Below are positions 13,142 through 38,500 of a stretch of DNA of 64,000 nucleotides, one piece after another. Within the stretch, counting starts at the first letter, position 1. The number at the start of each line of letters is the position of its first letter. Both the position numbers and the translations under genes were made by a program. The stretch comes from Thermococcus sp. 4557. GTDB lineage: Archaea; Methanobacteriota_B; Thermococci; Thermococcales; Thermococcaceae. Below the pieces are notes generated by a model. That model searched no databases, had not been told where the DNA came from, and was given only the letters and a program-made list of their open reading frames with translations. Where the stretch lies: positions 1 to 64,000 of the forward strand of contig NC_015865.1 of assembly GCF_000221185.1 (NCBI RefSeq). Reading direction: 5' to 3'.

Positions 13142-14284
13142 TTATCCTCCAAACTCCTCCGCCCACTTCTCGTACCTCTCGATCTCCTTCCTCGTCAGTG
13201 GGGACTTGATCCTCTTGAAGGCCTTCTCGAAATCTCTCATTTCAAGAGGCCGGGTTCTCAGTTCGATTTCACCGTCAAGTATCTCAGAAACGGCTTCTAG
13301 GTCCTCCAGTTCCGGGTTTTCCTCAACCAGCATACTCTGAATGGCCAGGTTGCACAGGTTCGCTACCTCCCTCCCTGAGTACAGCCGTCTAACGCTCTCC
13401 TCTGCTATCGCATCGAGGTCGAGCCTGCTTATGTCCAAACCCTTGGTGTGTATCCTCACAATCTCTTTGATGGCCTCCTTATCGGGTAGTGGCACGTAAA
13501 TCCTCAGTGGAAACCTTGAGAGTAGCGCCTCGTCAAGGTCCCAGGGGGTGTTGGTGGATGCGAGTGTAAGGACGAATCCCTCCGCTCTTCCCTTAAAGCC
13601 ATCTATCTCCGACAGGAGGGTCGCCAGGGTTCTCCGCGTTGTCTCGTGAACGCTCTCTCTTTTCAGACTGAGTGCATCAACCTCATCGATGAAAACTATA
13701 CTGGGAGCCTTCTCCCTCGCCAGTCTGTACAAAGCCGTTATCAGCTTTGAGGATTCACCATAGTACTTGCTGAGTACGTCCGAAGCTTTGACGTTGAAGA
13801 ACGTGGCCTTTAAACTCCCCGCCGCCGCGGAAGCGAGGAGTGTCTTACCTGTGCCGGGTGGGCCGAAGAGGAGAATTCCTTTCCACGGCTTTATGGCATC
13901 GGGTCTCTTTGCGAAGGCTATGGCAACGTTCCGTGCCAGCAATCTCTTGACTTCCTCCAGCCCCCCTATGTCCTTCCACGTGACGGTAGAACTGGCTATC
14001 AGCCCCTCCACCTGCGCCATGTATTCATCGGTGGATGCTCCCCCTTTGATGCTGCCCCCTGTTCCACGGGGTGATGGAGTTTTGAGTTCCTCCGCGGCCT
14101 CTTCCCAGCGCCTTGCCTTCTCCAGGTAGAATTCTCTCCTGTCAGGCATCTTGTCCGCCAGTGCCTTCAGAATCCCTGCGCACTTGAGGGCGTACTCTCT
14201 GGCTCCTTCTATGTTGCCCCTCGCCAGCTCCGCCTCATACTCCTTTCTGCATTCCTCAAAAAGAGAAAGATAGAGGGACTTCAT
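13142..14284 (-). CDS. Vps4/CdvC-like AAA ATPase with MIT-like N-terminal domain
   Basis: 380 residues. Residues 1-70 are a three-helix, MIT-like segment (KEYEAELARGNIEGAREYALKC...). A linker follows, then one AAA domain: Walker A GPPGTGKT near residue 144, Walker B IVFIDEVDAL, sensor 1 LTLASTNTPWDLDEA, arginine-finger region LLSRFPLRIYVPLP. The end, RKEIERYEKWAEEFGG, resembles the C-terminal helix of Vps4 enzymes. Vps4 disassembles ESCRT-III polymers. The gene directly follows the Snf7-like gene (TGA then G then ATG), the same pairing as cdvB-cdvC in crenarchaea. Close paralogue of the gene at 29997. Substrate and role are inferred. Confidence 0.82.
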   Translation of the reverse strand: MKSLYLSLFEECRKEYEAELARGNIEGAREYALKCAGILKALADKMPDRREFYLEKARRWEEAAEELKTPSPRGTGGSIKGGASTDEYMAQVEGLIASSTVTWKDIGGLEEVKRLLARNVAIAFAKRPDAIKPWKGILLFGPPGTGKTLLASAAAGSLKATFFNVKASDVLSKYYGESSKLITALYRLAREKAPSIVFIDEVDALSLKRESVHETTRRTLATLLSEIDGFKGRAEGFVLTLASTNTPWDLDEALLSRFPLRIYVPLPDKEAIKEIVRIHTKGLDISRLDLDAIAEESVRRLYSGREVANLCNLAIQSMLVEENPELEDLEAVSEILDGEIELRTRPLEMRDFEKAFKRIKSPLTRKEIERYEKWAEEFGG

Positions 14285-14285
14285 C

Positions 14286-14852
14286 TCAACCCCTCATCAT
14301 ATCCTCTATCTGTTTCAGTCTGGTTTTGGGTTCTAGGTCGGAGGATGCGGAGGCCTCAAATAACGATGCGGTCTCCTCGAGGCTCTCCGCGTCGAACTCA
14401 CCGGTTAAGATGCTCTCACTTGTAAGGTCGAGCATCGTGCTGAGGGCCTCGTCAAGACCCTCCACTTTTGTCATGGCCTTTTCAAACTCAACCTGCATCT
14501 TGGCTACGTCCTCGGCCCCGGGCCCTTCCGCTATGCTCTCCACGATGTCCCTGCTAAACTGAATGAAGTTTGCAGAGACCTTCACCAGTTCTCTCTGAAT
14601 CTCGGCTTCCTCCATGAGGAGCAGCAGCCTCTTGGCCTGCTTTATCCGCTCCTCAAGGGCGAGATACTTCATGGCGCTCCTCTTCAGCAGTGCTTCATCG
14701 CCAAGCTTTGCTGCTTCCTTACCCTGGAGGAAAATTTTACGCTTCAGGTTTTCGAGGTTGTTTATGTACTGCTTCAGGGCCATTTTGGCCTTCCGCATAC
14801 GAACCTTGCGCTCGATTTCCTTTTCCTCTTTGGACTTCCAAAACCTCACCAT
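14286..14852 (-). CDS. Snf7/ESCRT-III-like coiled-coil protein
   Basis: 188 residues, entirely helical. The N-terminal half is strongly basic (KSKEEKEIERKVRMRKAKMA, LKRKIFLQGKEAAKLGD), followed by a long hairpin and an acidic C-terminal half (DLTSESILTGEFDAESLEE). This charge layout and the GKEAAKLGDEALLKRSAMKY stretch resemble the alpha1-alpha2 hairpin of ESCRT-III/CHMP proteins. The tail LEPKTRLKQIEDMMRG could be an MIT-interacting motif. The ribosome site GGAGG lies seven bases before the ATG. The Vps4-like AAA gene follows immediately. Homology is judged by eye and needs a profile search. Confidence 0.65.
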   Translation of the reverse strand: MVRFWKSKEEKEIERKVRMRKAKMALKQYINNLENLKRKIFLQGKEAAKLGDEALLKRSAMKYLALEERIKQAKRLLLLMEEAEIQRELVKVSANFIQFSRDIVESIAEGPGAEDVAKMQVEFEKAMTKVEGLDEALSTMLDLTSESILTGEFDAESLEETASLFEASASSDLEPKTRLKQIEDMMRG

Positions 14853-24425: not shown

Positions 24426-27400
24426 TCACCTCTTCCGATCCTTGATGACGGACAGTTTGCCCCTCTTCCTTGTTATCTTGAATCCCAGCCTGCGGTAGCC
24501 GTGGACGTTCTCGGCGTAGAGCCTGAACTCCTTCTTCTGTATGCTGAACCGTGTGAATCTAGGGACGTCGGAGACACCGGTTTCCCTCTTTATCATCTCG
24601 TCTATCTCCTCCCGGTGCTTTAGGTAGTACTCCACCATCTCCCCGAGGGTCTCTTTAGGGTCGCCCTCGAACTCCTCGTCCCTGACCACGTACTCCACAG
24701 GCCCGTAGCCTGGAACCTCTATTCTTCCGTCCACCCTCTGTCTCCTCCCGCCCCCGCCGGCGGTCGTGATTGTCGGTGTAATTCCTGCACGTCTTTTCGG
24801 TTCCCGTTTTCCGCTCACGGTTTCGCTCTCCACCTCGAGCTTCACCCTGTCGAGCAGGACCCTCAGCTCATCTATGGTCGACTTCCCTATCGGAATGCCC
24901 TCGCGCATCATGAGCTCAAGCTGTTCTATGGCCCCTTCTATTTCCGCCTTGTACTCCCTGGAAAGGCCCTTCAGCTCCTCGAGCGCCCCTATGAGTCCTG
25001 CCTTGTCGTTGAGCTGGGCGTGAAGTAGAGCGTTCCTGCTGAGCTGTTCCGTGAGCCTGCGTTTGAGCCTCGCGAGTTCTTCCCCGCTGGTGGTCATCAT
25101 TGTCGTCCGGGTTTTCTCGATCTCCCGCTCAATGGCTTCCTTCTCCTTCTCCAGCCTCTCCACCAGTTCAAGGTCGTGGAGGAACTCCTCGACGCTCTGG
25201 TAGCGGTCTTCCTTCCTCTTCGCGAGAAGCTTCTCGAAAATGCCGTCGTACTTCGCCAGGGCCCCGCTGAAGTGACTCGGTGGCAGGGTCTTCGCGCTTC
25301 CCCCAAGGAGGCTTGCGACGATTGCTGTCTTTGATGACCCCTCGTAGGGGAGTTTGCCCGTCAGGAGTTCGTAGAAGATGAGGCCGAGCTGGTAGATGTC
25401 CGTCCTCGCGTCCGTGCCACCGTGGACGCCCGGATTGAGCTGTTCTGGGGCGGAGTAAAGGAGCGTTAGGCTCTCGGCGGTGGTAGGGACAGCCGGGGAA
25501 GCCCCGATCTTCGCCAATCCCCAGTCGGTTATTTTTGGCGTCATGTCCCCCTTGAGGAGAACGTTCTCCGGTTTGAGGTCGAGGTGGTAAATGCCCTTCG
25601 AGTGAGCGTGCGCCAGTCCGCTCGCTATCCCTCTGATAAGCTCCAGGGCCCTTTTCTCGCCGACCGGTTTGGGATAAGCTCCAAGGTCTCTGACGCGGGT
25701 TCCATTGACTTCAATGCCCTCAACGAACTCCATCTCCAGGTACGGAACCGGGAGAATATCGGCATCGTGGAGTCGCACTATGTTTGGATGGTTCAGGTGG
25801 AGCCAGGCCGAGACCTCCTTCAGGAAGCCCTTGCTAGTCTTCTCATCTATCCTCGGTATCTTGAGGGCGGCTACCTTTCCGTCTTCCCTCCTCTTGACCT
25901 TGAATACCTTCGCGAAGCCCCCTTCCCCTAGGAACTCGAGGGGTTCATACTTCCCTAGAAGCTCTTCTGGGAACAGGAGACTCTTGTCTCTGGGCGTGTT
26001 GCGCGTTCCATCCTCCTTTTGCTGCGACTTGGTCTTTCCCCCGGACTTTTTCTTCCGTCTTCCCAGCGTGAATATCCCGAACACAGCCACGGCCGATAAA
26101 CCCAGTGCTAGGAGTACCATGTTCCAGCTGGTAGTTTTTCCTGTCGAGGCCTCTTCGCTCTCCAGAATCACACTGCCGACCACAGCGAGCGAGAACTCGG
26201 AGACCTTTACCTCCGTGGAGTCGGGGATCAGGGGCGGCACTGATGGTGGGTCAAGTTGCAGGAACCTGTTCTCGCTGGTTGAGATGGATGCCTGCACCCC
26301 CGAGATGTTGGAGACCCTGCACATCGGGCATTCTTTGGGCATCGCGCCAATGTCTAGAGTGAGGAGGGTAACGTGGGGCTTGTCCATGTTCAGGTACGAC
26401 CTCATCGCGACCGTCAGCGTTTCCCCTGTGAGGGACGCGTCGAGCACACGACCCCCTACCGGAGCTGTGTATATTCTGTGCGTCCTGATTTCGCCGGTTT
26501 CGTCCGTTACAAGTACCACCACGTCGCCCGAGTCGAAGATGCGCGTCGCGGTGCCCACCAGCACGAGGTCGTTCGCCCCAAGAATAACCCGTTCGATGGA
26601 CAGTTTGGCGCCTTCATGGGAGTACGTCCTCGCGAACTCCACGGCGCCGTTCGGTTTCAGCTTGACGAGGAGCCCCTTCACCCCCAGGTCCGATTCCACG
26701 CTCCCCGCGAGGATTATTCCGTCGTCGGTTCTAGCCACATCCGCCAGCTTCGTCCCTGGATAGATGCCGTAAACCTTTCCCCACATCACGACTCCGCCCG
26801 CGGAGATCATCGCCACGGCCAGGCTCTTGCCTTTGTTGCCCGCCAGCAAGATGTAACCGTTCTCCAGGGCCTTCACCTTCAGGAGTTTGAGGTCGTACAC
26901 CCCCCTGTACCTGTAAACCCACTCCAGGTTCCCAGAGGGGTCCAGTTTGAGGATCAGATACTCCCAGGGAGTATCGAGTTCTATCAGCCCGAACACGCTC
27001 CCGTCGTCCGCCACGCTTGCGTCCACTAGGTCCCTACCGCCCGGTGACGCGTACACTCTTGTCCACTCCACGTTCCCGTTTCCGTCGAGCTTGATTATCC
27101 ATACTCCCCTGCCGTCTCCGACCGTACCTCCTGCAATGATGGAGCCTTCGGGTCCCCTGGCCAGCACCTTTCCGATGAAACTGTACTTGCTTTCGACGAG
27201 CTTGGACCACACCACTTCCCCGTTTTCTCCAATCCTGGCCACTACCACGCCCTGTTCAGTGTTTCCAAGCAATACAATGTCGTTCCCAATATATTCAACA
27301 CTCACCGTTCCTTCTGGGTCAATGTTGGAGTACGCTTTCGCCCAGGGCTCGGCCGCCGCCTGTGGGAGTGAAGCCATCAGGAGGGTTAGGATGAGACTGA

Positions 27401-27437
27401 AAATCAGACTTGCCTTGAATTTCGATGCTGCTGTCAT
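24426..27437 (-). CDS. Receptor Ser/Thr kinase with extracytoplasmic beta-propeller; non-RD kinase
   Basis: About 1003 residues. Signal peptide 1-29, outside propeller about 31-400 with WxxxY blade motifs (WAKAYSNIDPEG, WTRVYASPGGRD), a CxxC pair (ECPMCRV), membrane helix about 439-457, then kinase domain about 497-760. Kinase motifs are GEGGFAKVFKV, VAALKIPR, YHLDLKPEN, DWG, SAPEQ. The HRD arginine is leucine, so activation-loop control differs from classic kinases. After the kinase come a helical domain (REGIPIGKSTIDELRVLL) and a C-terminal ~100-residue domain (RIEVPGYGPVEYVV ... RKRGKLSVIKDRK) not found in the other five. ATG 27437 overlaps the PP2C stop (ATGA); GTG 27443 is also open. Confidence 0.9.
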   Translation of the reverse strand: MTAASKFKASLIFSLILTLLMASLPQAAAEPWAKAYSNIDPEGTVSVEYIGNDIVLLGNTEQGVVVARIGENGEVVWSKLVESKYSFIGKVLARGPEGSIIAGGTVGDGRGVWIIKLDGNGNVEWTRVYASPGGRDLVDASVADDGSVFGLIELDTPWEYLILKLDPSGNLEWVYRYRGVYDLKLLKVKALENGYILLAGNKGKSLAVAMISAGGVVMWGKVYGIYPGTKLADVARTDDGIILAGSVESDLGVKGLLVKLKPNGAVEFARTYSHEGAKLSIERVILGANDLVLVGTATRIFDSGDVVVLVTDETGEIRTHRIYTAPVGGRVLDASLTGETLTVAMRSYLNMDKPHVTLLTLDIGAMPKECPMCRVSNISGVQASISTSENRFLQLDPPSVPPLIPDSTEVKVSEFSLAVVGSVILESEEASTGKTTSWNMVLLALGLSAVAVFGIFTLGRRKKKSGGKTKSQQKEDGTRNTPRDKSLLFPEELLGKYEPLEFLGEGGFAKVFKVKRREDGKVAALKIPRIDEKTSKGFLKEVSAWLHLNHPNIVRLHDADILPVPYLEMEFVEGIEVNGTRVRDLGAYPKPVGEKRALELIRGIASGLAHAHSKGIYHLDLKPENVLLKGDMTPKITDWGLAKIGASPAVPTTAESLTLLYSAPEQLNPGVHGGTDARTDIYQLGLIFYELLTGKLPYEGSSKTAIVASLLGGSAKTLPPSHFSGALAKYDGIFEKLLAKRKEDRYQSVEEFLHDLELVERLEKEKEAIEREIEKTRTTMMTTSGEELARLKRRLTEQLSRNALLHAQLNDKAGLIGALEELKGLSREYKAEIEGAIEQLELMMREGIPIGKSTIDELRVLLDRVKLEVESETVSGKREPKRRAGITPTITTAGGGGRRQRVDGRIEVPGYGPVEYVVRDEEFEGDPKETLGEMVEYYLKHREEIDEMIKRETGVSDVPRFTRFSIQKKEFRLYAENVHGYRRLGFKITRKRGKLSVIKDRKR

Positions 27438-28180
27438 TTCCACACCACCACCGTCACGTTGTCCCTTGTGACGGGCAGGGCCTCTTCGATCAGCCTTCTA
27501 GTTATCTCCTCCGCGCTCCTGCCCTGTGCGGCTATCCCGACTATTCTTTCTTCGTCCACGTAGTCATGAAGCCCGTCGGAGCTGAGCAGGAGAACGTCCC
27601 CGTGCCTCAGCTTCCATTCGTAAAAATCAACCTCAAATTTGGCCCCGAGGGCCCTCGTTATGATGTTCCGCATCGGGTGCCTCCTCGCTTCATCGGGGGT
27701 TATCTCACCTCTATCAACGAGCTCCTGGACGAGTGAGTGGTCCTTCGTCCTGGCGATGATTCTTCCGTTCCTTATCAGATACGCTCTGCTGTCCCCGGTA
27801 TTGGCTATGAGAACCCTTCCTGGGGAAACGAGGGCGGACACAAGGGTCGTCCCCATTCCTTCCCTCTCTCCCGTGGCGTTCTCCAGTATTCTGGAGTGTG
27901 CCAGCTCGTACGCTTTCCTGAGCGTTATCCGGGTGAGATACTGGGGAGCGCCAGGTTCGTACTCCTGGAGAAGCGTCTCTTTCAGAACCTCTATTGCAAT
28001 CCCGGAAGCCACCTCGCCGGAGCTATGGCCCCCAAGCCCATCGGCCACCGCCAGGAGATACGCGTCGGGCAGTTTCAGGATTAAAAAGCTGTCCTCGTTG
28101 TTGTATCTTCCCCCAACGTGGCTTATGCCGGATAAAAATGGAAGAAAAACTGCCATCGTTCCCCCATTGGACTCGGCCAT
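27434..28180 (-). CDS. Soluble PP2C-family Ser/Thr phosphatase
   Basis: 248 residues, a bare PP2C catalytic domain without membrane segment. Metal and catalytic motifs: NNEDSF, VADGLGGHSSGE, MGTTLVSA, NTGDSRAY, DHSLVQELVDRGEITPDEA, LLLSSDGLHDY, DNVTVV. It is sandwiched between two kinase genes with overlaps at both ends: its ATG overlaps the upstream kinase stop (TAATG), and its stop overlaps the next kinase start (ATGA). This argues for equal production of kinase and antagonist. It is closely related to the PP2C domain of the protein at 17479. Confidence 0.93.
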   Translation of the reverse strand: MAESNGGTMAVFLPFLSGISHVGGRYNNEDSFLILKLPDAYLLAVADGLGGHSSGEVASGIAIEVLKETLLQEYEPGAPQYLTRITLRKAYELAHSRILENATGEREGMGTTLVSALVSPGRVLIANTGDSRAYLIRNGRIIARTKDHSLVQELVDRGEITPDEARRHPMRNIITRALGAKFEVDFYEWKLRHGDVLLLSSDGLHDYVDEERIVGIAAQGRSAEEITRRLIEEALPVTRDNVTVVVWK

Positions 28181-30000
28181 TAGCCCTCCACCTCCCTCTG
28201 CACCTTGTGGAGGAGTACTTTGAGCTCGTCCAGCGTGGACTTGCTTATGGGCACGCTCTCGCGCATCATCAGCTCGAACTGGCCTATTGCGCCCTCAAGC
28301 TCCTCCCTGTGGGCCTTTGAGAACGCCTTCAGGTCTTCCAGTGCGTTGATGAGTCCGGCCTTGTCGTTGAGCTGAGCATGAAGGAGGGCGTTCCTGCTCA
28401 ACTGTTCAACCAGCTGGCGCATGAGCTTTTTGAGCTCTTTGCTATCGGTCGTCATGTTCATCGTGGTCTTTGTCTTCTCTATCTCCTCGGCCAGTTTATT
28501 TCTCTCCGCGTCGAGCTTCTTCATTAGCTCAAGATCGTGGAGGAACTCCTCGACGCTCTGATAGCGCTGTTCTTTCTCCTTTGCGAGAAGCTTCTCAAAA
28601 ATGCCGTCGTACTTCGCCAGAGCAATATTGAAGTGGCTCGGCGGCTTGGGCTTCACGGCAGGGTTTATCACCTTGGCCATGACAACGGCGGGAGAAGTCC
28701 CCTGATAGGGGAGCTTGCCCGTTAGCAGCTCGTAGAATATGAGTCCGAGCTGGTAGATGTCCGTCCTGGCATCGGTGTGGCCGTAGGTCTCGTCGTCGAG
28801 CTGTTCCGGAGCGGCGTAGAGAAGGGTTAGGCCCTTTGTTGTCGTGGCAGTCGTTGAAACTGCACCGACTTTAGCCAATCCCCAGTCGGTTATCTTAGGA
28901 GTCAAATCACTGGTTATGAGGACGTTCTGGGGCTTCAAATCCCTGTGGAAGACCTGCTTGCTGTGGGCGTGTTTGAGGCCCTCTGCGATACCCCTGATGA
29001 ATTGGAGTGCCTTTTCCTCCTCGACGGGCTTCGGATACTTGCCGAGGTCTCTGATGACCTCGCCGTTGAGCTGGATTCCGTCAACAAACTCGATTTCTAG
29101 GTGTGGCAACGGCTCGTCGAAGGCGTTGTAGAGCTTCACTATGTTGGGGTGATCAAGCAGGCGCCAAGCTTTAACCTCCTTGAGGAAGAACCTCTTGGCC
29201 TTCTCGTCCAGGCGGGAGACCTTTAGGGCTATGATTTTTCCGTCTGATTTCCTCCTTACTTTGAATACCTTTGCAAAGCCGCCCTCACCAAGGAATTTGA
29301 GGGGCTCGTATTTGTTGAGGAGCTCGGGGGGGAAGTAGGGGACGAGCTTTGGTGGGGTTCTAATTTCTGGTTGAGCGGTCGTGGGCAAACCTTCATCTTC
29401 AAAACTTTTCGTGTCTTTACCGCTGGATCTCCTGCTGTGTACGTAACCTAGGACAACAATTCCAACTCCGACAAGAATCATGGCTATTAGTGCATAAGAG
29501 AAACCACCATTTGTGGTGCCGGAGAGATCTGCGTAACTCCTGGTTTCTGTGGGAGTGTACGGGTGGGTGACATACAGCGAGACATACGTCCTCTTGCTGT
29601 ATGTCTTGTCTTCCAACAATCCGGGATCAGTGTACTGAACCGTTACAGTTATCGTTTTGCTTCCGCTGGATTCAGATGACGGAACAAACACTCTAAACTC
29701 GAAGGTTCTGCTTTCCCCTTGGGGGATTTTATCTACGTATGCGGTTTCTGGGGATATCACTATGTTGCTGTATCCCGCGATTTCTGGAGTGACTCTAACA
29801 TCAACGGCATCGTCATCTCCAATCTCCTTAACCGTGACGGTCAATGTTGCATAGTTCCCCGCCGTTATGGATTGGGGTTTTAGATACGCAGATACGTCTA
29901 TCTGAGTGGTTCCCCCGATTCCTAATACTTGCGGCGTTCCAATGAACAGAATCACCGTTAGGGCGAGTACTATCTTAAAGAAAAAGGGTACGCGTCTCAT
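28180..30000 (-). CDS. Receptor Ser/Thr kinase with extracytoplasmic Ig-like domain
   Basis: About 606 residues. Signal peptide or first membrane helix 5-27 (PFFFKIVLALTVILFIGTP), an outside Ig-like (NEW3/CARDB-like) domain 33-148, membrane helix 167-187, kinase about 231-490. Kinase motifs are GEGGFAKVFKV, IIALKVSR, FHRDLKPQN, DWG, AAPEQ. The end is the helical domain shared with sister kinases (RESVPISKSTLDELKVLL). The frame is open back to 30195, but that stretch lies over the AAA gene. ATG 30000 overlaps the AAA stop (ATGA) and starts the signal peptide. Here the catalytic loop is the classic HRD. Confidence 0.9.
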   Translation of the reverse strand: MRRVPFFFKIVLALTVILFIGTPQVLGIGGTTQIDVSAYLKPQSITAGNYATLTVTVKEIGDDDAVDVRVTPEIAGYSNIVISPETAYVDKIPQGESRTFEFRVFVPSSESSGSKTITVTVQYTDPGLLEDKTYSKRTYVSLYVTHPYTPTETRSYADLSGTTNGGFSYALIAMILVGVGIVVLGYVHSRRSSGKDTKSFEDEGLPTTAQPEIRTPPKLVPYFPPELLNKYEPLKFLGEGGFAKVFKVRRKSDGKIIALKVSRLDEKAKRFFLKEVKAWRLLDHPNIVKLYNAFDEPLPHLEIEFVDGIQLNGEVIRDLGKYPKPVEEEKALQFIRGIAEGLKHAHSKQVFHRDLKPQNVLITSDLTPKITDWGLAKVGAVSTTATTTKGLTLLYAAPEQLDDETYGHTDARTDIYQLGLIFYELLTGKLPYQGTSPAVVMAKVINPAVKPKPPSHFNIALAKYDGIFEKLLAKEKEQRYQSVEEFLHDLELMKKLDAERNKLAEEIEKTKTTMNMTTDSKELKKLMRQLVEQLSRNALLHAQLNDKAGLINALEDLKAFSKAHREELEGAIGQFELMMRESVPISKSTLDELKVLLHKVQREVEG

Positions 30001-31193
30001 CCCCCAAACTCCTCCGCCCACTTCTCGTACCGCTCGATCTCCTTCCTCGTCAGCGGGCTCTTGATCCTCTTGAAGGCCTCCTCGAAGTCCCTCATTTCCA
30101 GGGGTCTCGTCCTCAGGGAGCGCTTTCTCAGCTCGTGGAAGGGAAGCTCCGCCAGCTTGTGGAGATCCCTGTTCTCCTCGCGTATCATGTGCCATATCGC
30201 CTCCTGACAGAGGTTCTTGAGGTCCCTTCCGGAGTAGAGCCTCCTGACGCTCTCCTCCGCTATCGCGTCGAGATCAAGCCGGCTTATGTCCAGTCCGCGG
30301 GTGTTGATCTTGATTATCTCCTTCGTGGCCTTCTCGTCCGGCAGCGGGACGTAAATCCTGCGCGGGAAGCGGGAAAGGACCGCCTCGTCCAAATCCCAGG
30401 GAGTGTTGGTCGCCGCCAAAGTCAGGACCAGTATGTCGCTCTTTTTGTCCTGGAAGCCGTCGAGTTCCGTGAGAAGTGTTGAGAGCATTCTCCTCGAGGC
30501 CTCGCTCTGGTCGCCGGAGCGCTTGGTCGTCAGGGCGTCTATCTCATCCATGAAGACTATGCTCGGGGCCTTTTCCCTGGCAACCTCATAGAGGGCCGAG
30601 ATTATCTTGGTGGACTCGCCGAAGTACTTGCTGAGGACATTGCTGGCCTTAACGCTGAAGAAGGTCGCGTTCAGGCTTCCGGCCGCTGCAGAGGCGAGCA
30701 GCGTTTTGCCGGTTCCCGGCGGGCCGAAGAGCAGGATACCCTTCCAGGGCTGGATCGATTCGGGCCTCTGCAGGGCGGAGATGACGACCGTTTCCATCAT
30801 CAGCATCTTGACCTCTTCCAGCCCGCCTATGTCGCTCCACTTGACCTTGGACTTCGTTATCAGGTTCTCGACGTATTGCTTGAACTTGTCCTCCTCGCCG
30901 TCCTCCGTCCCGGCCTCCTTTCCGCTTCCACCTTCTTTCATCGGCCTGTGCTTCCTCTTTACCCCGTAGCGGCCGGCTTCAACGTCCCTCGCTATGGTCT
31001 CCCACTTCTTGGCCTTCTGCAGGTAGCTCTCGCGGTTGAACTCGTCATACTTCGCGAGTTGCTTCAGTATCCTGGAGCATTCGAGGGCCTTTTTTCTGGC
31101 GGTTTCCTTGTCGCCCTTCTTTATCGCTTCCTCAAACTCCTTCTTGGCCTTCCTAAAGGCTGACATCAGGGGACCGGAAAGATCGACGGGCAT
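29997..31193 (-). CDS. Vps4/CdvC-like AAA ATPase with MIT-like N-terminal domain (second copy)
   Basis: About 398 residues. MIT-like three-helix segment 8-75 (SAFRKAKKEFEEAIKKGDKE ... RESYLQKAKKWETIA), a Lys/Gly/Glu linker, AAA domain with Walker A GPPGTGKT, Walker B IVFMDEIDAL, sensor 1 LTLAATNTPWDLDEA, arginine region VLSRFPRRIYVPLP. The C-terminus, TRKEIERYEKWAEEFGG, is nearly identical to the copy at 13142. ATG 31208 is in frame, but GGTGGTGGTTGGG lies just before ATG 31193. The gene opens a tightly overlapping run AAA-kinase-PP2C-kinase, which ties an ESCRT-disassembly-type ATPase directly to phosphorylation control. Confidence 0.84.
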   Translation of the reverse strand: MPVDLSGPLMSAFRKAKKEFEEAIKKGDKETARKKALECSRILKQLAKYDEFNRESYLQKAKKWETIARDVEAGRYGVKRKHRPMKEGGSGKEAGTEDGEEDKFKQYVENLITKSKVKWSDIGGLEEVKMLMMETVVISALQRPESIQPWKGILLFGPPGTGKTLLASAAAGSLNATFFSVKASNVLSKYFGESTKIISALYEVAREKAPSIVFMDEIDALTTKRSGDQSEASRRMLSTLLTELDGFQDKKSDILVLTLAATNTPWDLDEAVLSRFPRRIYVPLPDEKATKEIIKINTRGLDISRLDLDAIAEESVRRLYSGRDLKNLCQEAIWHMIREENRDLHKLAELPFHELRKRSLRTRPLEMRDFEEAFKRIKSPLTRKEIERYEKWAEEFGG

Positions 31194-31233
31194 CCCAACC
31201 ACCACCATGGTTTTGGATTGATATTACCTCTGT

Positions 31234-31245
31234 GTTTAAAAAATA
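31234..31245 (-). promoter_or_regulatory. TATA-like element before the AAA-kinase-PP2C-kinase run
   Basis: An A/T-only stretch reading TTTTTTAAAC on the minus strand lies 40-50 bases before ATG 31193. It sits between the start and the 11-bp repeat array at 31291-31409. Confidence 0.4.
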
Positions 31246-31290
31246 AAAATTTCGGGCGGCTATATCCTGATTTTGCGGGTTGATCCAGCC

Positions 31291-31409
31291 TGACCCCTTT
31301 ACGACCCCTTTCTGACCCGAATGGGCCGTTTATGAAACGTTTGCGATGCGTTTGAAACGTTTTAAGCTGAGCCAATTTTGAGCCTTTTATGAGCCAGCTG
31401 AGCCCTTTC
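31291..31409. repeat. Array of 11-bp-phased short direct repeats in the intergenic gap
   Basis: Three blocks follow one another at near-helical spacing. GACCC occurs at 31292, 31303 and 31314. CGTTT occurs at 31327, 31338, 31349 and 31358. TGAGCC occurs at 31368, 31379, 31390 and 31399. The spacings are 11,11; 11,11,9; 11,11,9. Two AAACGTTT palindromes (31335 and 31355) lie exactly 20 bp apart. The period is not a multiple of three, so coding is unlikely although a 99-codon frame stays open. The position, 50-170 bp upstream of the TATA-like element of the AAA run, suggests a regulator-binding array. The rest of the 335-base gap is AT-rich with no other feature seen. Confidence 0.7.
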
Positions 31410-31528
31410 ATTTGGCCTGCCGTGAGGCATTCTTGAGTCAATTCCGAATCAATTGGGGCAATCATATTATCACACCTCTACATCAACTTGAGTATTGGGC
31501 GTTTGATTATACCAAACTTGCTCAACTC

Positions 31529-33472
31529 TCACCTCGACACCTCCCTCTCGATCCTCAGTAACAGCGCCCTAACCTTTTCCTCGACCTCGGAGCTTATCGG
31601 AATCCCCTCCTTCAGCAGCATCTCCACCTGGGCTATCGCGTTGAGCAGGTCGTCGAGGTTCTCCTCCGTGTAGAACTTGAGGTCGTCCAGCGCCGCCAGC
31701 AGTTCGGCCTTATCGTTGAGCCTCGCCGCCAGAACCGCGACCTTAACCGTCTTGCGGGCGCTTTCAATCTTCAGCCTCTCGAACTCCTCCCGCGAGCGGC
31801 TTCTCCTCAACGCCAGGCCGGTTTTTATTAGCTCGCCTTTCTCCCGCTCCAATTCAGAGAGGGATTCCAGGGCATTTAGGAACTCCTTAACGCTCTGGTA
31901 GCGCTCTTCTTTCCTCTTCGCCAGGAGCTTTTCAAAAACTCCGTCGAGCCTCTTGAGCTCAGGCTTGAGCTCGGACATGGGCTTGGGCTTTGCGTGGAGG
32001 ATTTTTCCAACGAGGGCACCAGGAGAGGTGGCTTTATACGGGAGCTCGCCCGTTAGGAGCTCGTAGAAGATCAGCCCGAGCTGGTAGACGTCGGTTCTTC
32101 CGTCGGGTTCGCCGTAGGTTTCTTCGTCAAGCTGTTCAGGAGCGGCATACAGCGGGGAGTAGCCGTAGTGCCTGCTCAGCGAGCTCCTCGCGCTTATCTT
32201 CGCCAGTCCCCAGTCCGTTATCTTTGGCGTCAGGTCGGCTTTGAGGAGGACGTTCAAGGGTTTGAGATCGAGGTGGTAGATGCCCTTTGAGTGTGCATGC
32301 TTGAGACCCTCGGCGATGCCCGTGATTAGTTTAATTGCCATCCTCTCGGGAACGGGCTTTGGATAAGCTCCGAGGTCTCTGAACAGCTCCCCATCGATCT
32401 CAGCGCCCTCAACGAACTCCATCTCCAGATACGGAACCGGCAAGATGTCTGCCCTGTAAAGCCTGACTATGTTCTCGTGGTTTAGGTTGTACCACGCGGC
32501 GACTTCTTTGACGAACAGGCCGCTCGTCCTCTCGTCTATTCTCGGTATCTTGAGGGCAACAATCTTTCCGTCTTTCCTTCTCTTGACCTTGTACACCCTG
32601 GCGAAGCCGCCCTCACCGAGGAATTCAAGGGGTTCGTAGCGTGAGAGAAGGGCTTGTGGGAAGTCCTTTGGAATCTCTCCATTGGAGGGTTTCTTCGTGT
32701 CCAAAGTTAGTAAGTCATCTGGGATTTTTATTGTCAATTTTTTCCTCTTCCTGGGGCTTTCCTCACCAGCCCGTGGGCCATTTGATTCCGTTGTAACTCC
32801 CACGAAATCCTTGAGGGTGCGGTTTATCCTCTCCACCACGATCTTTGCCTCTTTGCTTTCGATTTTCTCGTGTCTCCTCTTGGCCGTCTCTAAAAGCCTG
32901 CGAATCTGCGTAGAGGTTATTTTGTATGTTATCTTCCATTGCCCCCCGATCCTTCCGACTCCGAGGTCATCGGGAGAAACCTCGATGTAGGCCTCCGGTA
33001 GAAATGAGGCGGAGTACCTCTTCCTGGCAACGAGTGTCCCCTGGTATTCCCTACCGTTCAGGACCTGGGATATATACGACAGGTGCCTGTCTTCCCATTC
33101 CCCTGCCCTCACGAGTTGGGTCAGGTTGCGTATGACTTCCTCTGGGAGAAGGTCCCTTAGAGGCGTTCCGGTGGGAGCATCGGTTGGAGGTCTCACGGCA
33201 TCTCCATAAAAGCCAACGAAGTACCATCTGCCGTCGAGGGGATTCATGCTAATGAACAGCACTATCCCCCTGCGGAATCTTTTTGGCCTGTTGAGAATGG
33301 TACCGTAGTATTTGTCAGGGGAGAATCCCTCGTAGAAGTTCCACCATTCGTGAGCATATCCCGTTTGCCTGACAAACTCGAAGCCTGATTCATACCTTCT
33401 CCTGAATGCTTCCCAGTCAAACCCTTTCCAGCGGTTGAAGGACCAGTTTATCTTTGCCACCAGTTTATCCAA
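31529..33472 (-). CDS. Soluble Ser/Thr kinase with Trp/Tyr-rich N-terminal domain; non-RD kinase
   Basis: 647 residues, no membrane helix. Residues 1-190 form an aromatic-rich domain not seen in the other kinases (INWSFNRWKGFDWEAF, HEWWNFYEGF, RRGIVLFISMNPLDGRWYF, GGQWKITYKI). A basic linker leads to the kinase domain at about 278-540: GEGGFARVYKV, IVALKIPR, YHLDLKPLN, DWG, AAPEQ. HRD is HLD, as in the propeller kinase. The C-terminal helical domain (KEGIPISSEVEEKVRALL) is shared. The start is TTG 33472, with GGGGTGG upstream; no better ATG was seen. It lies 19 bases after the previous kinase gene. Confidence 0.86.
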   Translation of the reverse strand: MDKLVAKINWSFNRWKGFDWEAFRRRYESGFEFVRQTGYAHEWWNFYEGFSPDKYYGTILNRPKRFRRGIVLFISMNPLDGRWYFVGFYGDAVRPPTDAPTGTPLRDLLPEEVIRNLTQLVRAGEWEDRHLSYISQVLNGREYQGTLVARKRYSASFLPEAYIEVSPDDLGVGRIGGQWKITYKITSTQIRRLLETAKRRHEKIESKEAKIVVERINRTLKDFVGVTTESNGPRAGEESPRKRKKLTIKIPDDLLTLDTKKPSNGEIPKDFPQALLSRYEPLEFLGEGGFARVYKVKRRKDGKIVALKIPRIDERTSGLFVKEVAAWYNLNHENIVRLYRADILPVPYLEMEFVEGAEIDGELFRDLGAYPKPVPERMAIKLITGIAEGLKHAHSKGIYHLDLKPLNVLLKADLTPKITDWGLAKISARSSLSRHYGYSPLYAAPEQLDEETYGEPDGRTDVYQLGLIFYELLTGELPYKATSPGALVGKILHAKPKPMSELKPELKRLDGVFEKLLAKRKEERYQSVKEFLNALESLSELEREKGELIKTGLALRRSRSREEFERLKIESARKTVKVAVLAARLNDKAELLAALDDLKFYTEENLDDLLNAIAQVEMLLKEGIPISSEVEEKVRALLLRIEREVSR

Positions 33473-33490
33473 TCAATCCACCCCCTTTCT

Positions 33491-35083
33491 TTACGGCATA
33501 CTAATTCTGTGGACAATAATCTCACCCTTGGCGATTAGATGTTCCGGAACGGGCAGACCCTCCTCAACCCTGGCTTCAAGGCTTTCTATCAAGCCATCCA
33601 GCTCTTCCCTAACCTTTCCTCTGGCGTACCTCCTGAGGGAGAGAGCGTACTTGAGGGCCTCCTTGGCATCCCCGAGCTTCAGGTGGAGCAGGAGCAGCTG
33701 GCCGGCGTAGTATGCAGAGCGCGAAAGGTCCGTGCTCCTCTCGAGCTCCCTCCTGTACTTCCCACCGAGAATCTCCGCCAGATCCCTCTGCAGCTCGGCA
33801 ACTGACTGATAGCGCTCCTCCTTCCTCTTGGCGAGGCACCTCATTATTACCGGCTCGAGGGGCCTTGCATCCGGATTCAGCTCGCTTGGGGGAACGGGAT
33901 CCTCCATCGTTATCTTTTCGGCGACTTCGATGAAGTCCTCCCCGTCGAAGGGCACCTTTCCGGTCGCAAGCTCATACATGAGAACGCCGAGCTGCCAGAC
34001 GTCCGTCCTCTCATCGGTTCTGCCGAAGCGTTTGCTTATCTGCTCCGGAGCGGCGTAGAGAGGGGTAAAGGTAGCTGTGGTCGTCCTGCTCTCAGTCAAT
34101 ACCTTACTCAGCCCCCAGTCACTTATCTTTGGCGTGCCGTCCTTCAGAAGGATGTTGCTCGGCTTTATGTCCCTGTGGATTACTCCCCGCTCGTGGGCGT
34201 ACTTCAGGCCCTCACAGACGTTGAAGGCTATCTCCGCCACCCTCTCCGGGGAAAGGGGCTTCTTGATGCCTCCCAGCGAGCCCTCACAGTACTCCATCTC
34301 TATGTACGGCACGGGGACGATGTTTGCCTCGTAGAGCCTGACTATGTTTCGGTGCCTCAGCCCGCTCCAGACGGCAACCTCATGAAGGAACTGCCTCCCC
34401 ACTCCCTCGGAGAGGCTGTGGGGAACCTTAAGCGCCACAGTCGAGCCGTCCGGTTTCACTGCGCGGTAGACGGTGGCGAAGCCGCCGGAACCAATTGGTT
34501 CCACGGACACGTACCTTGACAGCAGTTTCTCCAGCCCGCCGGGCCCCGAGGGCAGGGGTTCGGATTCCTCCCTTGGGAGCGACTTAACCCTGAGAGTTAA
34601 GGGAACTCTCACCAGGTAGATCCCGGATTTCAACCCTGCGCGGGCTTTTATCTCGCCAACTTTCCGCGGAATGAACCTCACGAAGGTTGATTTGACCTCA
34701 CCGGGAGCCAGCGAGAGGTCTATTCTTCCGGGGGATACCTTTCCGTACTCCCCAAGCTCGTCCAGCCGTATTGTGACTGCCAAAGGGCGGCTAGAAACAT
34801 TCCTCATCCCAACCCTCAGGAGGGCCTCAACGCCTTCGTTCAGTTCCGGAGGTGCTTCGAAGATGAAGCCCTCGCGGAGAACCTTCCGTAGATCCTGTCT
34901 TTTAGAGGACGCCCTCGTAACGGGTGCACGGGTGGGACTCGCGCTCTCTTCAATAATCCTTACTATTAGCGGCAGGAAGATTAACAGAGCCAAAACTACC
35001 CCGAACTCGCCCAACAGATACACAATGAAAATGGAAACAAAAAGGCGACGAATGAAGTCGGCCTCCAGGGAGCGCCGTTGCAT
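33491..35083 (-). CDS. Membrane-anchored Ser/Thr kinase with Ig-like domain
   Basis: About 530 residues. An N-terminal hydrophobic stretch 12-45 (one long or two short membrane helices) precedes an Ig-like beta domain 70-167 (EALLRVGMRNVSSRPLAVTI). The kinase is at about 190-445: GSGGFATVYRA, VALKVPHS, IHRDIKPSN, DWG, AAPEQ. The last ~90 residues are helical, ending EEGLPVPEHLIAKGEIIVHRI, close to the end of the kinase at 42321. If the hydrophobic part is a hairpin, the Ig-like domain is inside. ATG 35083 overlaps the stop of the upstream propeller gene (TGATG). Confidence 0.89.
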   Translation of the reverse strand: MQRRSLEADFIRRLFVSIFIVYLLGEFGVVLALLIFLPLIVRIIEESASPTRAPVTRASSKRQDLRKVLREGFIFEAPPELNEGVEALLRVGMRNVSSRPLAVTIRLDELGEYGKVSPGRIDLSLAPGEVKSTFVRFIPRKVGEIKARAGLKSGIYLVRVPLTLRVKSLPREESEPLPSGPGGLEKLLSRYVSVEPIGSGGFATVYRAVKPDGSTVALKVPHSLSEGVGRQFLHEVAVWSGLRHRNIVRLYEANIVPVPYIEMEYCEGSLGGIKKPLSPERVAEIAFNVCEGLKYAHERGVIHRDIKPSNILLKDGTPKISDWGLSKVLTESRTTTATFTPLYAAPEQISKRFGRTDERTDVWQLGVLMYELATGKVPFDGEDFIEVAEKITMEDPVPPSELNPDARPLEPVIMRCLAKRKEERYQSVAELQRDLAEILGGKYRRELERSTDLSRSAYYAGQLLLLHLKLGDAKEALKYALSLRRYARGKVREELDGLIESLEARVEEGLPVPEHLIAKGEIIVHRISMP

Positions 35084-37158
35084 CACCGTCTCACCTTCCG
35101 GGTGAGCAGTGCCGGGAGCAGTGCGGGAATTGCGAAGAGTCCTGGTCCACAGATGCCGCCTCCACCTTCGTTGGTCTGCGTTTCCGTCTCAACATCGCCA
35201 AAGCTGCCCGTTTCAAACTCCTTCAGCTTCTCCTCGTCCAGTTCCCCACTTCTTGCCTTAGCCAGTATCTCGCTGAGTGCATTCTCTCCGTTCTTGCCCG
35301 CGTTTTTCAGTGCGACCCTTGCCTTCTCCGCCAGTTCCTTCGCTCCCTTCACGTCGCCGTCCTTGAACTTCCCGGCCGAGTCGAGGAGTGGATCAACGTA
35401 GTTCCAGAGGCGGACGTCCTTCTTCCAGTACTCATCCACAACCGCCGCGGCCCCATCTGCGGCATCGAACAGCCCCTTCTGCTCACCCTCCAGCTTTCCA
35501 CTTAGCGTTACTGCCTTTCCGAGGGCATCCTCGAGGTTCCCCGAGTCGTAGCTCTCCCGGATAGGGCCTACGTCGATGCCCCCCTTTGACAGTATTGCCA
35601 TGTCGTACTGAACCCAGAACTCCCTGAACGCGGTTATCCACGCCTCAAGGGCCTTGTCCCTCGCGTCCGCGTAGTTTCCGTTGAGGTACTCCTGCTTCGC
35701 CCGCTCAAGGATGGGCCCTGCGAGGTCCGCGGTGTAACCGAGTTCGTTTATCCTGTCAATCAGTTCCTCCGTTTTCTGAATGGCATAGCTGGACATCTCG
35801 CGCAGGTAGTCCTCAGAGGGCCGGAAGTCGATTTCCCTGCCGCCGAGCCTGTATTTTTCCATCGATACCCCCGGACTGGTGGTAGTGGTGGTGACCGTTC
35901 CGGTTGGAGTCTCTATCTCCGCCCTCTTCTCCAGGGTCAGAGCCACCGTCTCGCTCTCCCCCAGATCCAGATTGACAGTCGTTTCGTTCGAGTAGTACCC
36001 CTCCATGCTCACAGTGACTTTGTACTTTCCGGGATCAAGGGTCAGGCTGAGCGGTGACGTGCCCTTGTAAACCCCGTTTATGTAAACCTCCGCCCCGCTT
36101 GGATCAGTTCTCACAGTGAGGACCGCGTAGTTGAAGTTGAAGAAGCCGAGCTTTTCCCCACCGGCGGCCAGGTAATCGGCCTTTTCCGTCCCGGCCACGG
36201 AGTTCGTGTTGCCGATATCGTAGAAGTTCACGGACGAGCCGTCCTTCGTCGTCAGTATCTCCACGCCCTCATCCGTCGCAATTCCAACGTAGTGGAGCGT
36301 GACCGCCAGATCCTTAGGGGTACCTCTGGTTGCCTTTGACCATTCAACGTTTCCGTCCCTGTCCGCCAGGTAAACCTTCCCGTCAGAGGTAAGGATCGCT
36401 ATGTACTTCCCGTCAGGGGTGAACTCTAGGTCGATGACGTTTGAAATGGCAAGCTTATCGCGGAACGTCCCGTAGACGTCGAGTATCCAGACCCCGTCCT
36501 TTCCACCGACCGCTATCAGGGAGTTGTCCGGACTTATTGCCAGGGTCTCAAAGTTCCTGTCGGCACTGGCGTCGGCGTATGGGTCGTACTTCCACCCTTC
36601 TGTCCCATCGGCCCGGTAGTAGATGACCTTGTCCCCTGCGAGCACTATGGCCTTGTCCGCGAATCCAACGGAGTAACCTACCTCCGCCGCCATAGCGACC
36701 CCGCCGGAGGTCCTGGTCTCCGGAAATCGCAGGAACGTCAGCTTTCCTGTGTACCTGTAGGCCTCAACGCTGAAGAGCGTCCCCACGACGAACCTGTCCC
36801 CCGAAGCGGCCAGGCTCTCTATCTTCCCCTTCGTGTCCGTGCTCCAGAGGAACTCTCCGTTGAGGGCGTTTATCACGTAGACGTTCTTCTCTCCCGCTCC
36901 CACCACGTACTTCATGTCCGGCGAAACCGCGAGGAGTTTGATGGCCTCGGGCAGTTCCGTGTGCCAAACCTCGGTCCCGTTCCGGTCGAAGAGGTACACT
37001 CCGTCCCCGGTTCCCACGAATATCTTTTCCCCACTTGGGGATATGTATACCGAGTACACCCCGATGTTTTTTGTCCAGGTGGGTGTGGCTGCGGCTGCTA
37101 TGGGGGACAGAAGGGCAAGTATCATGCCCAGTGCCACGATAAACCCCAGGTACCTCAT
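35083..37158 (-). CDS. Secreted beta-propeller/PEGA protein with CGP-CTERM tail
   Basis: About 691 residues. Signal peptide (YLGFIVALGMILALLSPIAAA), propeller about 27-350 with repeats such as SPSGEKIFVGTGDGVYLF and SPDNSLIAVGGKDGVWIL, one PEGA repeat (PSGAEVYINGVYKGTSPL), and a long helical region about 440-655. The C-terminus is GGGGICGPGLFAIPALLPAL then basic residues: the CGP-CTERM signal typical of Thermococcales surface proteins, expected to be processed and anchored. ATG 37158 follows GGTGATAACA; the frame is open to 37233. Unlike its neighbours it has no inside domain, so it may hand a signal to the kinase encoded right after it. Confidence 0.86.
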   Translation of the reverse strand: MRYLGFIVALGMILALLSPIAAAATPTWTKNIGVYSVYISPSGEKIFVGTGDGVYLFDRNGTEVWHTELPEAIKLLAVSPDMKYVVGAGEKNVYVINALNGEFLWSTDTKGKIESLAASGDRFVVGTLFSVEAYRYTGKLTFLRFPETRTSGGVAMAAEVGYSVGFADKAIVLAGDKVIYYRADGTEGWKYDPYADASADRNFETLAISPDNSLIAVGGKDGVWILDVYGTFRDKLAISNVIDLEFTPDGKYIAILTSDGKVYLADRDGNVEWSKATRGTPKDLAVTLHYVGIATDEGVEILTTKDGSSVNFYDIGNTNSVAGTEKADYLAAGGEKLGFFNFNYAVLTVRTDPSGAEVYINGVYKGTSPLSLTLDPGKYKVTVSMEGYYSNETTVNLDLGESETVALTLEKRAEIETPTGTVTTTTTSPGVSMEKYRLGGREIDFRPSEDYLREMSSYAIQKTEELIDRINELGYTADLAGPILERAKQEYLNGNYADARDKALEAWITAFREFWVQYDMAILSKGGIDVGPIRESYDSGNLEDALGKAVTLSGKLEGEQKGLFDAADGAAAVVDEYWKKDVRLWNYVDPLLDSAGKFKDGDVKGAKELAEKARVALKNAGKNGENALSEILAKARSGELDEEKLKEFETGSFGDVETETQTNEGGGGICGPGLFAIPALLPALLTRKVRR

Positions 37159-37200
37159 TGTTATCACCATCTCTACCGGCTCATACCGACACCTCCGCTG

Positions 37201-37210
37201 ATTATATTCC
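37201..37210 (-). promoter_or_regulatory. TATA box before the CGP-CTERM propeller gene
   Basis: GGAATATAAT on the minus strand, about 45 bases before ATG 37158. A T-run (37239-37253, minus strand) just upstream could end the preceding transcript. Confidence 0.45.
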
Positions 37211-37253
37211 TGGGTTGATTTGACGACGTTCAATTAATCAAAAAACGCAAAAA

Positions 37254-37868
37254 TCAAAGCTCCTCCAGCCACTCTTCCTTCTTCTTTGCCTTCTCTTCGC
37301 CGATCACCTTCTCGGCGGCAACCTCCGGTTCCAATTCACCTTCCTTAACGGCGTGTATCGTCTTCATTATCTCGGCCAGCTCCTCGTCCTCCTCGAACTC
37401 GACGCCCGCGCCGATGGTCTGGTCGGTCATTCCGAGCATTCTGTTGAGGTTCTCGTTGAAGTTCTGGGCGTCGAGCTGCATCTCGGTGAGGTGGCTCTCA
37501 AGCTCCTCGGGCGACATTCTCTTCAGCAGGTCCCAGGTGGGGGTGCCCTTGAGTATGCTCTCGTTCTCCTTGATTATCACGAGGTTGCTGATGAGCATCA
37601 GCTGCTTGTTGAGCTGCATGTGGGTCTTCTGGAGGTTCTTCTTGCGCTGGTTGAGGGTCTTTATCTTGGTGGCTAGTGTGAGTTCCTCGCTCTTGGTTCT
37701 GGCCAGCTTGGCCCTCTCGAAGAGCCTCGCTATCTCCTGGTCTATCGAGGCTATCTCCTTCTCCACCTTCTCTATCTGGTACTCCAGCTTGATCTGGCTC
37801 TCCCTGAGCTTCGGAAGGGGTATGTCGAGGGGGTTCTTCTTTCCAAAAAAGCGGGAGAGGACGCTCAT
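37254..37868 (-). CDS. Small coiled-coil protein, possible ESCRT-III-like, paralogue of next gene upstream
   Basis: 204 residues, fully helical. It opens with a short basic region (SVLSRFFGKKNPLDIP), then a long heptad hairpin (RESQIKLEYQIEKVEKEIAS), a middle helix (LISNLVIIKENESILKG) and an acidic, Glu-rich end (EEWLEEL). The basic-hairpin-then-acidic-tail layout resembles ESCRT-III subunits. Its ATG overlaps the stop of the paralogue at 37865 (ATGA). Family membership is an inference from layout only; an unrelated coiled-coil pair is possible. Confidence 0.6.
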   Translation of the reverse strand: MSVLSRFFGKKNPLDIPLPKLRESQIKLEYQIEKVEKEIASIDQEIARLFERAKLARTKSEELTLATKIKTLNQRKKNLQKTHMQLNKQLMLISNLVIIKENESILKGTPTWDLLKRMSPEELESHLTEMQLDAQNFNENLNRMLGMTDQTIGAGVEFEEDEELAEIMKTIHAVKEGELEPEVAAEKVIGEEKAKKKEEWLEEL

Positions 37869-38464
37869 AGCTCCTCGTCCTCCTCGAGCCTGCGGTCTAT
37901 GGAGACGACCTTCTCGGTGACATCCTCGACGTCGGCCTCCCCTGCCTCAACCTGGCTCCAGGCCTTCATCAGCTCCCTCTCGGTCTGATCCTCGCTCTCC
38001 TCGAACTCCGCGACCTCCATCTCGAAGACCCTGTTGAGGCCCTCCACCATCTCGTCGAACTCCTTGCCGTCGAGGTTTATCTTTATCAGCGCCTGCTCCA
38101 GCTCCTCCGGCTCGACGCTGTTGAGCTTCTCCCATACACCGGTCTTCCTCAGCTCCTTCTCGTACTTCTTCACGATTATCAGGTTCTTTATGAGGGTGTA
38201 CTGCTTCTGGGCGGTGGTGAAGTCCTTGAGCTTGAGCTTCTGCTCCATGTCGAGGCTCTTTATCTCCTGGGCAAGCATCTTCTTCTTGAGCTTGTCGGCC
38301 CCGATTCCCTCCTGGAAGAGCTGCTTCTTCTTCTTTTCAATCTGGTTGATGTCCTTCTTGAGCCTCTCGAGTCGGTTTCTCAGTCTTATCTCCTCCCCCT
38401 GAAGCTCCCTCAGGGAGAGCTTTTCGATGGTGTTTTTCCTCCCAAACATGTTGCGTATCTTCAT
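37865..38464 (-). CDS. Small coiled-coil protein, possible ESCRT-III-like, paralogue of next gene downstream
   Basis: About 199 residues with the same layout as its downstream neighbour: short basic start (KIRNMFGRKNTIEKLSL), heptad hairpin (IRLRNRLERLKKDINQIEKK), a middle helix that aligns by eye (LIKNLIIVKKYEKELRKTG), a conserved PEELEQALIKINLDG stretch (neighbour: PEELESHLTEMQLDA), and an acidic tail. GGAGGTG lies seven bases before ATG 38464; the frame is open to 38482. Two overlapping paralogues suggest a hetero-oligomer. Confidence 0.62.
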   Translation of the reverse strand: MKIRNMFGRKNTIEKLSLRELQGEEIRLRNRLERLKKDINQIEKKKKQLFQEGIGADKLKKKMLAQEIKSLDMEQKLKLKDFTTAQKQYTLIKNLIIVKKYEKELRKTGVWEKLNSVEPEELEQALIKINLDGKEFDEMVEGLNRVFEMEVAEFEESEDQTERELMKAWSQVEAGEADVEDVTEKVVSIDRRLEEDEEL

Positions 38465-38500
38465 CCTACACACCTCCAACACGTAAAAAGTGAAACTAAA

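Follow-up and report, generated by a model that had tools for sequence, protein, structure and literature searches.

Schlafen domains act on RNA, and centromeres of the ParR/parC type are built from tandem 11-bp iterons. In one account, prokaryotic Schlafen proteins combine a Schlafen RNase domain with a minimal histidine-kinase ATPase and a winged helix-turn-helix (wHTH) and serve as auxiliary effectors in BREX loci, this architecture being considered a probable RNase effector of defence loci (PMC12839542). Another system that relies on direct repeats is RptR, a repressor of type I restriction loci that binds three direct repeats (PMC12255303). A search of openly licensed PMC papers found no description of arrays such as those considered here, which occur at the 3' ends of Schlafen-type genes in archaea and bacteria and, in Thermococcus sp. 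4557, in a gap that holds no such gene.

The repeat array between the kinase and AAA genes

The window, that is, the whole stretch of 64,000 nucleotides under analysis, belongs to a host genome of 2.01 Mb and contains a 320-bp gap bordered by the genes for a Ser/Thr kinase and a Vps4/CdvC-like AAA ATPase (Table 1), the start codon of the latter being suggested at 31195 by its orthologues. The original prediction had described three repeat families in this gap, all of which were recovered with the positions and spacings ascribed to them: GACCC (31292, 31303 and 31314), CGTTT (31327, 31338, 31349 and 31358) and TGAGCC (31368, 31379, 31390 and 31399), together with a pair of AAACGTTT (31335 and 31355). 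The 9-bp last step reported for the second and third blocks was also found, but it had been overlooked that the first block has such a step as well (TGACCC at 31313 to TGGGCC at 31322) and that the rhythm continues to about 31455 (TGAGGC at 31423, TGAGTC at 31434 and CGAATC at 31445), spanning about 31280-31455 mostly in exact 11-bp register. Read on the minus strand, the segment of about 31291-31462 consists of three sets and a weak fourth, each with a direct repeat in four copies at steps of 9-11-11 bp (the plus strand reads 11-11-9), in the order weak set, GGCTCA x4, GTTTCA-type x4 and GGGTCA-type x4. The element GGCCCA, which is the first site of set C, is common to sets B and C; sets C and D are weak, as they only score 23.

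Table 1. Features of the kinase-AAA gap and its borders (window positions; on the minus strand each of sets A to D starts at its higher coordinate).
Feature	Coordinates	Strand	Basis or score
Vps4/CdvC-like AAA ATPase gene	29997..31208	-	Pfam AAA and Vps4_C; orthologues
AAA gene promoter/leader region, border of the variable segment	31200..31268	-	100% identical to G032
Possible extra degenerate site, weak (plus-strand TGATCC at 31281, 10 bp from the first TGACCC)	31280..31290	-	pattern positions
Set C: GGCCCA / GGGTCA / GGGTCG / GGGTCA, spacing 9-11-11	31291..31331	-	23/28
Set B: AAACGTTTCA / AACGCATCG / AAACGTTTCA / AAACGGCCCA, spacing 9-11-11	31327..31364	-	24/28
Set A: GGCTCA x4, spacing 9-11-11	31368..31405	-	26/28, best 9-11-11 set in 464 kb
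Set D (weak): TGCCCCA / TGATTCG / TGACTCA / TGCCTCA, spacing 9-11-11	31425..31462	-	23/28
Shine-Dalgarno-like GAGGTG and ATG (31465) directly before the stack	31463..31480	-	read from sequence
Ser/Thr kinase gene	31529..33472	-	Pfam

The lag-11 identity of the gap is 0.518, the mean of the shuffles is 0.316, and none of 3000 dinucleotide shuffles equalled the observed value. In a background sample of the host genome made up of the 64-kb window and 20 stretches of 20 kb (464 kb, 23% of the genome), the gap array is the top 110-bp stretch at lag 11. The motif score, which takes any four similar 7-mers with a maximum of 28, reaches at least 24 with 9-11-11 spacing at two places in these 464 kb, both in the gap array, and at least 23 at 14 places, five of which are in the gap array. 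The sets average 10.3 bp per step, and from the 9-11-11 spacing the sites would lie on approximately one face of the helix. To this extent the helical phasing claimed earlier stands, although it is an incomplete account, as the identity of the motifs is specific too.

The gap is a variable site, since the AAA orthologues of relatives carry different sequence, lacking the array, at this position, and since the nearest relative (G032, AAA protein 99% identical) shares exactly 31200-31268 and diverges where the stack begins. The kinase-AAA interval of that genome (C1 1974-3182 and 1987588-1988925) includes a Schlafen gene, a DUF5122 beta-propeller gene and another kinase end, and has no stack.

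That the stretch is not explained by any gene, as the original prediction put it, was close to right: the one gene reading considered, a 99-aa ORF on the minus strand (31166-31465), was rejected, as it has no Pfam match and, in 94 genomes, no convincing homologue beyond the shared AAA promoter (other matches E>=0.007). A scan of the window stretch for bacterial-type promoters and terminators gave zero of either. The GAGGTG followed by ATG directly before the stack is, from its sequence, a candidate for the leftover start of a lost gene. The surrounding region (24426-38482 and 13145-14290) is a dense cluster containing Ser/Thr kinases, a PP2C phosphatase and two Vps4/CdvC-like AAA ATPases (62% identical), as well as two small coiled-coil-looking proteins that have no Pfam match and resemble ESCRT-III by eye only.

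Arrays at the 3' ends of Schlafen genes

Three TGASCC sites spaced 11 bp apart occur, among 94 genomes of the family and besides the window, in G005 (with one mismatch), G032 and G040. In the latter two the array spans a stop codon or lies next to it, the gene in question having the Pfam domain order SLFN_AlbA_2, HATPase_c_4 and HTH_DeoR, as array-bearing genes do in general; in G040 the copy is truncated, and HATPase_c_4 is its only match. Homologues of this Schlafen gene were detected in 36 of the 94 genomes (E<=1e-25), and each of the closer Thermococcales homologues bears at its 3' end a motif of its own (GGGTCA, TTTCA, GGGCTCA/GGTATCA, GAGTCA, GCCATCA or GATGCA), mostly in four copies and spaced 9-11-11 or the reverse, 11-11-9. 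The 3' ends were scored first with spacings allowed to vary from 8 to 13 bp and then with each of the two spacings fixed, excluding matches short of residue 405, duplicates in the first 60 bases and segments below 110 bp. A score of at least 24/28 was obtained for 20 of the 22 distinct 3' ends (>=45% identity), and with fixed spacings for none of 1500 random segments of the host genome and none of 13 remote homologues (28-31%). Loci L089 and L092 have only one site and an inverted copy.

Several of these genes occupy the locus of the window stack. In G032 and G021 a Schlafen gene with an array directly follows the orthologue of the window kinase, and in G032, G021, G007, G038 and G043 a Schlafen gene, in some cases truncated, precedes the AAA orthologue by 3-10 kb on the same strand, a placement that for G032 holds only if contig C1 closes to a circle. 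The motif type of set B is that of the array behind the G021 Schlafen gene (L074/L113), the type of set C is found behind the Schlafen genes of G032 and G007, and the GGCTCA class of set A is present at the G038 gene as a single site and an inverted copy; in relatives, all three motif classes of the window are borne by Schlafen genes that lie upstream of this AAA gene.

Beyond the Thermococcales, a scan with one genome per species returned 80 loci in Thermoplasmata, Methanosarcina, Methanoculleus, Cloacimonadota, Thermotogae, Chloroflexi, Nitrospirae, Bacteroidetes and others, of which four truncated ones were left out. A set scoring at least 25 is present in 63 of the remaining 76 3' ends and missing from 13, the control values being 3/382 for mid-gene segments and 7/426 for flanks (10/808 together); the commonest spacing is 9-11-11 (27 of the 63). 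The conservation of phase in relatives, whose absence the original prediction would have taken as a refutation, is missing at the same gap, whereas the architecture recurs in both gene sets, and what had been called a multi-site array does consist of repeated sites, of the kind found at the 3' ends of Schlafen/HTH genes.

Two or more sets are stacked behind one gene in 14 of the 76 loci (controls, 0/349), about ten of them with clearly different motifs; L156, L160 and L163 are extensions of one motif and L171 is a variant. In L105 and L111 an array stands alone next to a gene that is decayed or has an internal deletion. A homologue on a Rhodothermus plasmid has by eye the same array just before the apparent start of a restriction specificity gene, and one on a Hymenobacter plasmid has pairs of ATTGGCTCA sites 11 bp apart. 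Restriction genes are sometimes neighbours (N6_Mtase matches 9 of the 67 ORFs upstream, Methylase_S 3 of the 58 downstream), and homologues of the Schlafen protein occur in 49 phage records. Fic proteins, which have the same wHTH fold, were set aside, two Fic 3' ends (L205 and L206) being devoid of an array by eye.

A different arrangement is displayed by the remote Schlafen-like homologue of the host (G000:C1, about 660579-661823; L099 1409-1479 and 2773-2843), in which, as in L097, L100, L101 and L102, a direct repeat of 70-72 bp, 92-100% identical, flanks the gene on either side and has GTTAACGGTA-like sites repeated within it.

The Schlafen protein and its recognition helix

As the fold predicted from a single sequence was poor (pLDDT 41.8), an AlphaFold model from an alignment of 30 sequences (pLDDT 88.6) was used. 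Its N-terminal part matches domain structures of SLFN5/11/13/14 and SAMD9 in a PDB structure search. Among the 30 proteins E11 is invariant and E16 and D47 are nearly so, residues which may be equivalent to the active site of SLFN13; D49 was rejected as the third catalytic residue, being not conserved. Residues 399-406 and 410-422 are predicted to form the winged HTH, with residues 409-417 in its second helix, and the most variable helix positions are 410, 411 and 414.

The motif of an array appears, from comparison of the sequences, to match the DNA-reading helix of the adjoining protein. When helices and motifs are listed together, recognition helices group with motifs across phyla: SKPTASREL pairs with GGCTCA in Thermococcales and in Kryptonium (L148), and K/RET(A/S)KRDL with GGGTCA in Thermococcus and Cloacimonadota. 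Covariation was evaluated on 76 proteins, 15 of 91 aligned ones having been filtered (array below 25 or gapped helix), in an alignment that excludes nine array-less and four truncated loci and includes the two plasmid homologues. For pairs with a body identity below 45%, a limit that applies to the body and not to the HTH, r was 0.256, a value reached in none of 5000 permutations (maximum 0.142). This is a modest correlation and may in part reflect shared descent of the 3' end, which inflates the covariation because the DNA coding for the HTH adjoins the array. In many pairs that match well, 41-73% of the remaining HTH is shared too, and unlike motifs are carried by many pairs in which 7-8 of 9 helix residues are equal. 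The best single case against shared descent is L174 and L155, which have the TATCGGACA motif in common and 7 of 9 helix residues equal, the rest of the HTH being 27% identical.

Origin and role of the stack

The window stack has the 9-11-11 spacing, known motif classes (GGCTCA, TTTCA and GGGTCA) and a locus in common with intact cases, and it does not lie at the 3' end of a Schlafen gene itself. No Schlafen coding sequence was detected in 30901-34000 (best E 0.29), which makes it an orphan stack rather than an intact array. The host genome has only one Schlafen relative, 32% identical, at 660579, and no HTH of the matching class, an HTH at 441348 being that of an unrelated membrane protein. 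Although no Schlafen coding remnant was found around the stack, it was probably left behind by the loss of one or more genes, and not by genes that never arrived. A parallel to such a history may be provided by G073 (L105:400-720), where an internal deletion has joined a start region to the final codons of a Schlafen gene with its array.

The stretch is likely to be a stack of three Schlafen arrays, and a weak fourth, that would dock their own protein for control in cis and whose gene or genes have been lost from this gap. Genes for an AlbA_2(Schlafen)-GHKL ATPase-winged HTH protein that bear such an array have, across or just behind their stop codon, four or sometimes more direct repeats of a private motif of 6-10 bp. 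According to this proposal, the C-terminal winged HTHs of several protomers would recognise these sites in double-stranded DNA, one for roughly each turn, and the protein would thereby be docked at the end of the gene that encodes it. For the arrays, docking and self-control of the Schlafen protein are the most likely role. Docking would keep a probable RNA-cleaving defence effector under cis control, either by damped expression of its operon or by an inactive docked state, and a private motif for each copy would prevent cross-talk between copies. In the host, arrays of at least three specificities would have stayed as an orphan stack once the genes were gone.

Among the other explanations, an exchange or attachment site is unlikely, though less so than the rest. 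At such a site HTH-plus-array cassettes or whole genes would recombine in at the arrays, stacks would be leftover ends, and rearrangement rather than control would be the function. Stacks with different motifs do exist, the HTH/array class SRQTATRDL/GAGTCA is found on two different protein bodies (L077_1486 versus L104 and L110), HTH-tail-like remnants that may be fossils of a replaced HTH are seen by eye behind the arrays of L175 and L130, and copies of the 5' end of a flippase-like gene (MSEASQALQKIARGTG) stand before and after successive Schlafen units (L103 1811/3315/4831; L105 574/2038/3563/5024). However, ordinary homologous recombination accounts for mosaics, no linked recombinase was seen among the neighbours, which were inspected unsystematically, and the tracking of motif and helix points to recognition by the Schlafen protein itself. 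The flippase-like starts in L103 and L105 look as if Schlafen units had been added serially at the start of that gene.

The regulation of the AAA operon by a host regulator, an idea drawn from the original prediction, found no support and is improbable: the repeated sites do lie directly upstream of the AAA promoter region (31200-31268), but the array is absent from the AAA orthologues of relatives, no host protein has a matching HTH, and a single stack contains three different motifs. More generally, an ordinary operator role is not evident, as the arrays are often located between two cistrons where no promoter is obvious. Their position, straddling stop codons and often preceding the next start codon, would suit a signal in the mRNA, between cistrons or in a leader, as would the action of Schlafen domains on RNA. 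This is less probable still, given that the window stretch has no Rfam match (covariance models, up to E 0.1), that the motifs covary with the HTH, and that the same helix class occurs with arrays oppositely oriented to the gene (L077 versus L147; L076 versus L131), which points to double-stranded DNA. The GC/AT alternation at 11 bp is high in the gap array, as would be expected of a chance minisatellite or a positioning sequence for archaeal histones; with the GC/AT pattern fixed, however, none of 5000 randomisations matched the observed lag-11 identity, and the same 9-11-11 rule is followed in unrelated bacteria and archaea, which renders this last explanation hardly credible.

Docking on the own gene remains the preferred reading, and a broader version of it is offered tentatively, as possible rather than probable. 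Oligomers of Schlafen defence proteins may dock on a private address that spans the stop codon of the gene, and this docking may act as a safety catch; specificity may be swapped as a cassette of HTH and array, stacks may record earlier specificities, and the more than 70 helix-motif pairs may amount to a recognition code, the whole arrangement being widespread and so far unnamed. The findings connect DNA arrays across archaea and bacteria with Schlafen-type proteins, whose link to phage defence has lately emerged, and they suggest a way in which a nuclease that harms its own cell might be held in check in cis. The matched recognition helices and DNA motifs constitute a natural data set, and orphan arrays could be used as markers of lost or exchanged defence genes.

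With regard to described systems, the best whole-body structural match of the modelled protein is DIP2311 of Corynebacterium diphtheriae (PDB 3lmm; Z 25.0, 345 residues aligned, rmsd 14.2), a structural-genomics entry with no stated function, and use of the structure search was restricted to the Schlafen and wHTH parts. ParR/parC has in common with the arrays tandem direct repeats about one turn apart beside the gene of a presumed binder; in contrast, the protein here is of the Schlafen/GHKL/wHTH type, the array is at the 3' end of its gene and no partition genes were seen. RptR differs in being a small homodimer outside the Schlafen/GHKL/wHTH family with a promoter site whose minimal form is the fixed palindrome TAGCTA, and it is similar in that a direct-repeat site is tied to restriction/defence loci (PMC12255303). 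As for the Schlafen proteins of PMC12839542, a term search of that source gave no mention of a 3' DNA array, and the gene is missing from the window; the array-bearing genes share the domain order of those proteins and some of them adjoin type I restriction genes.
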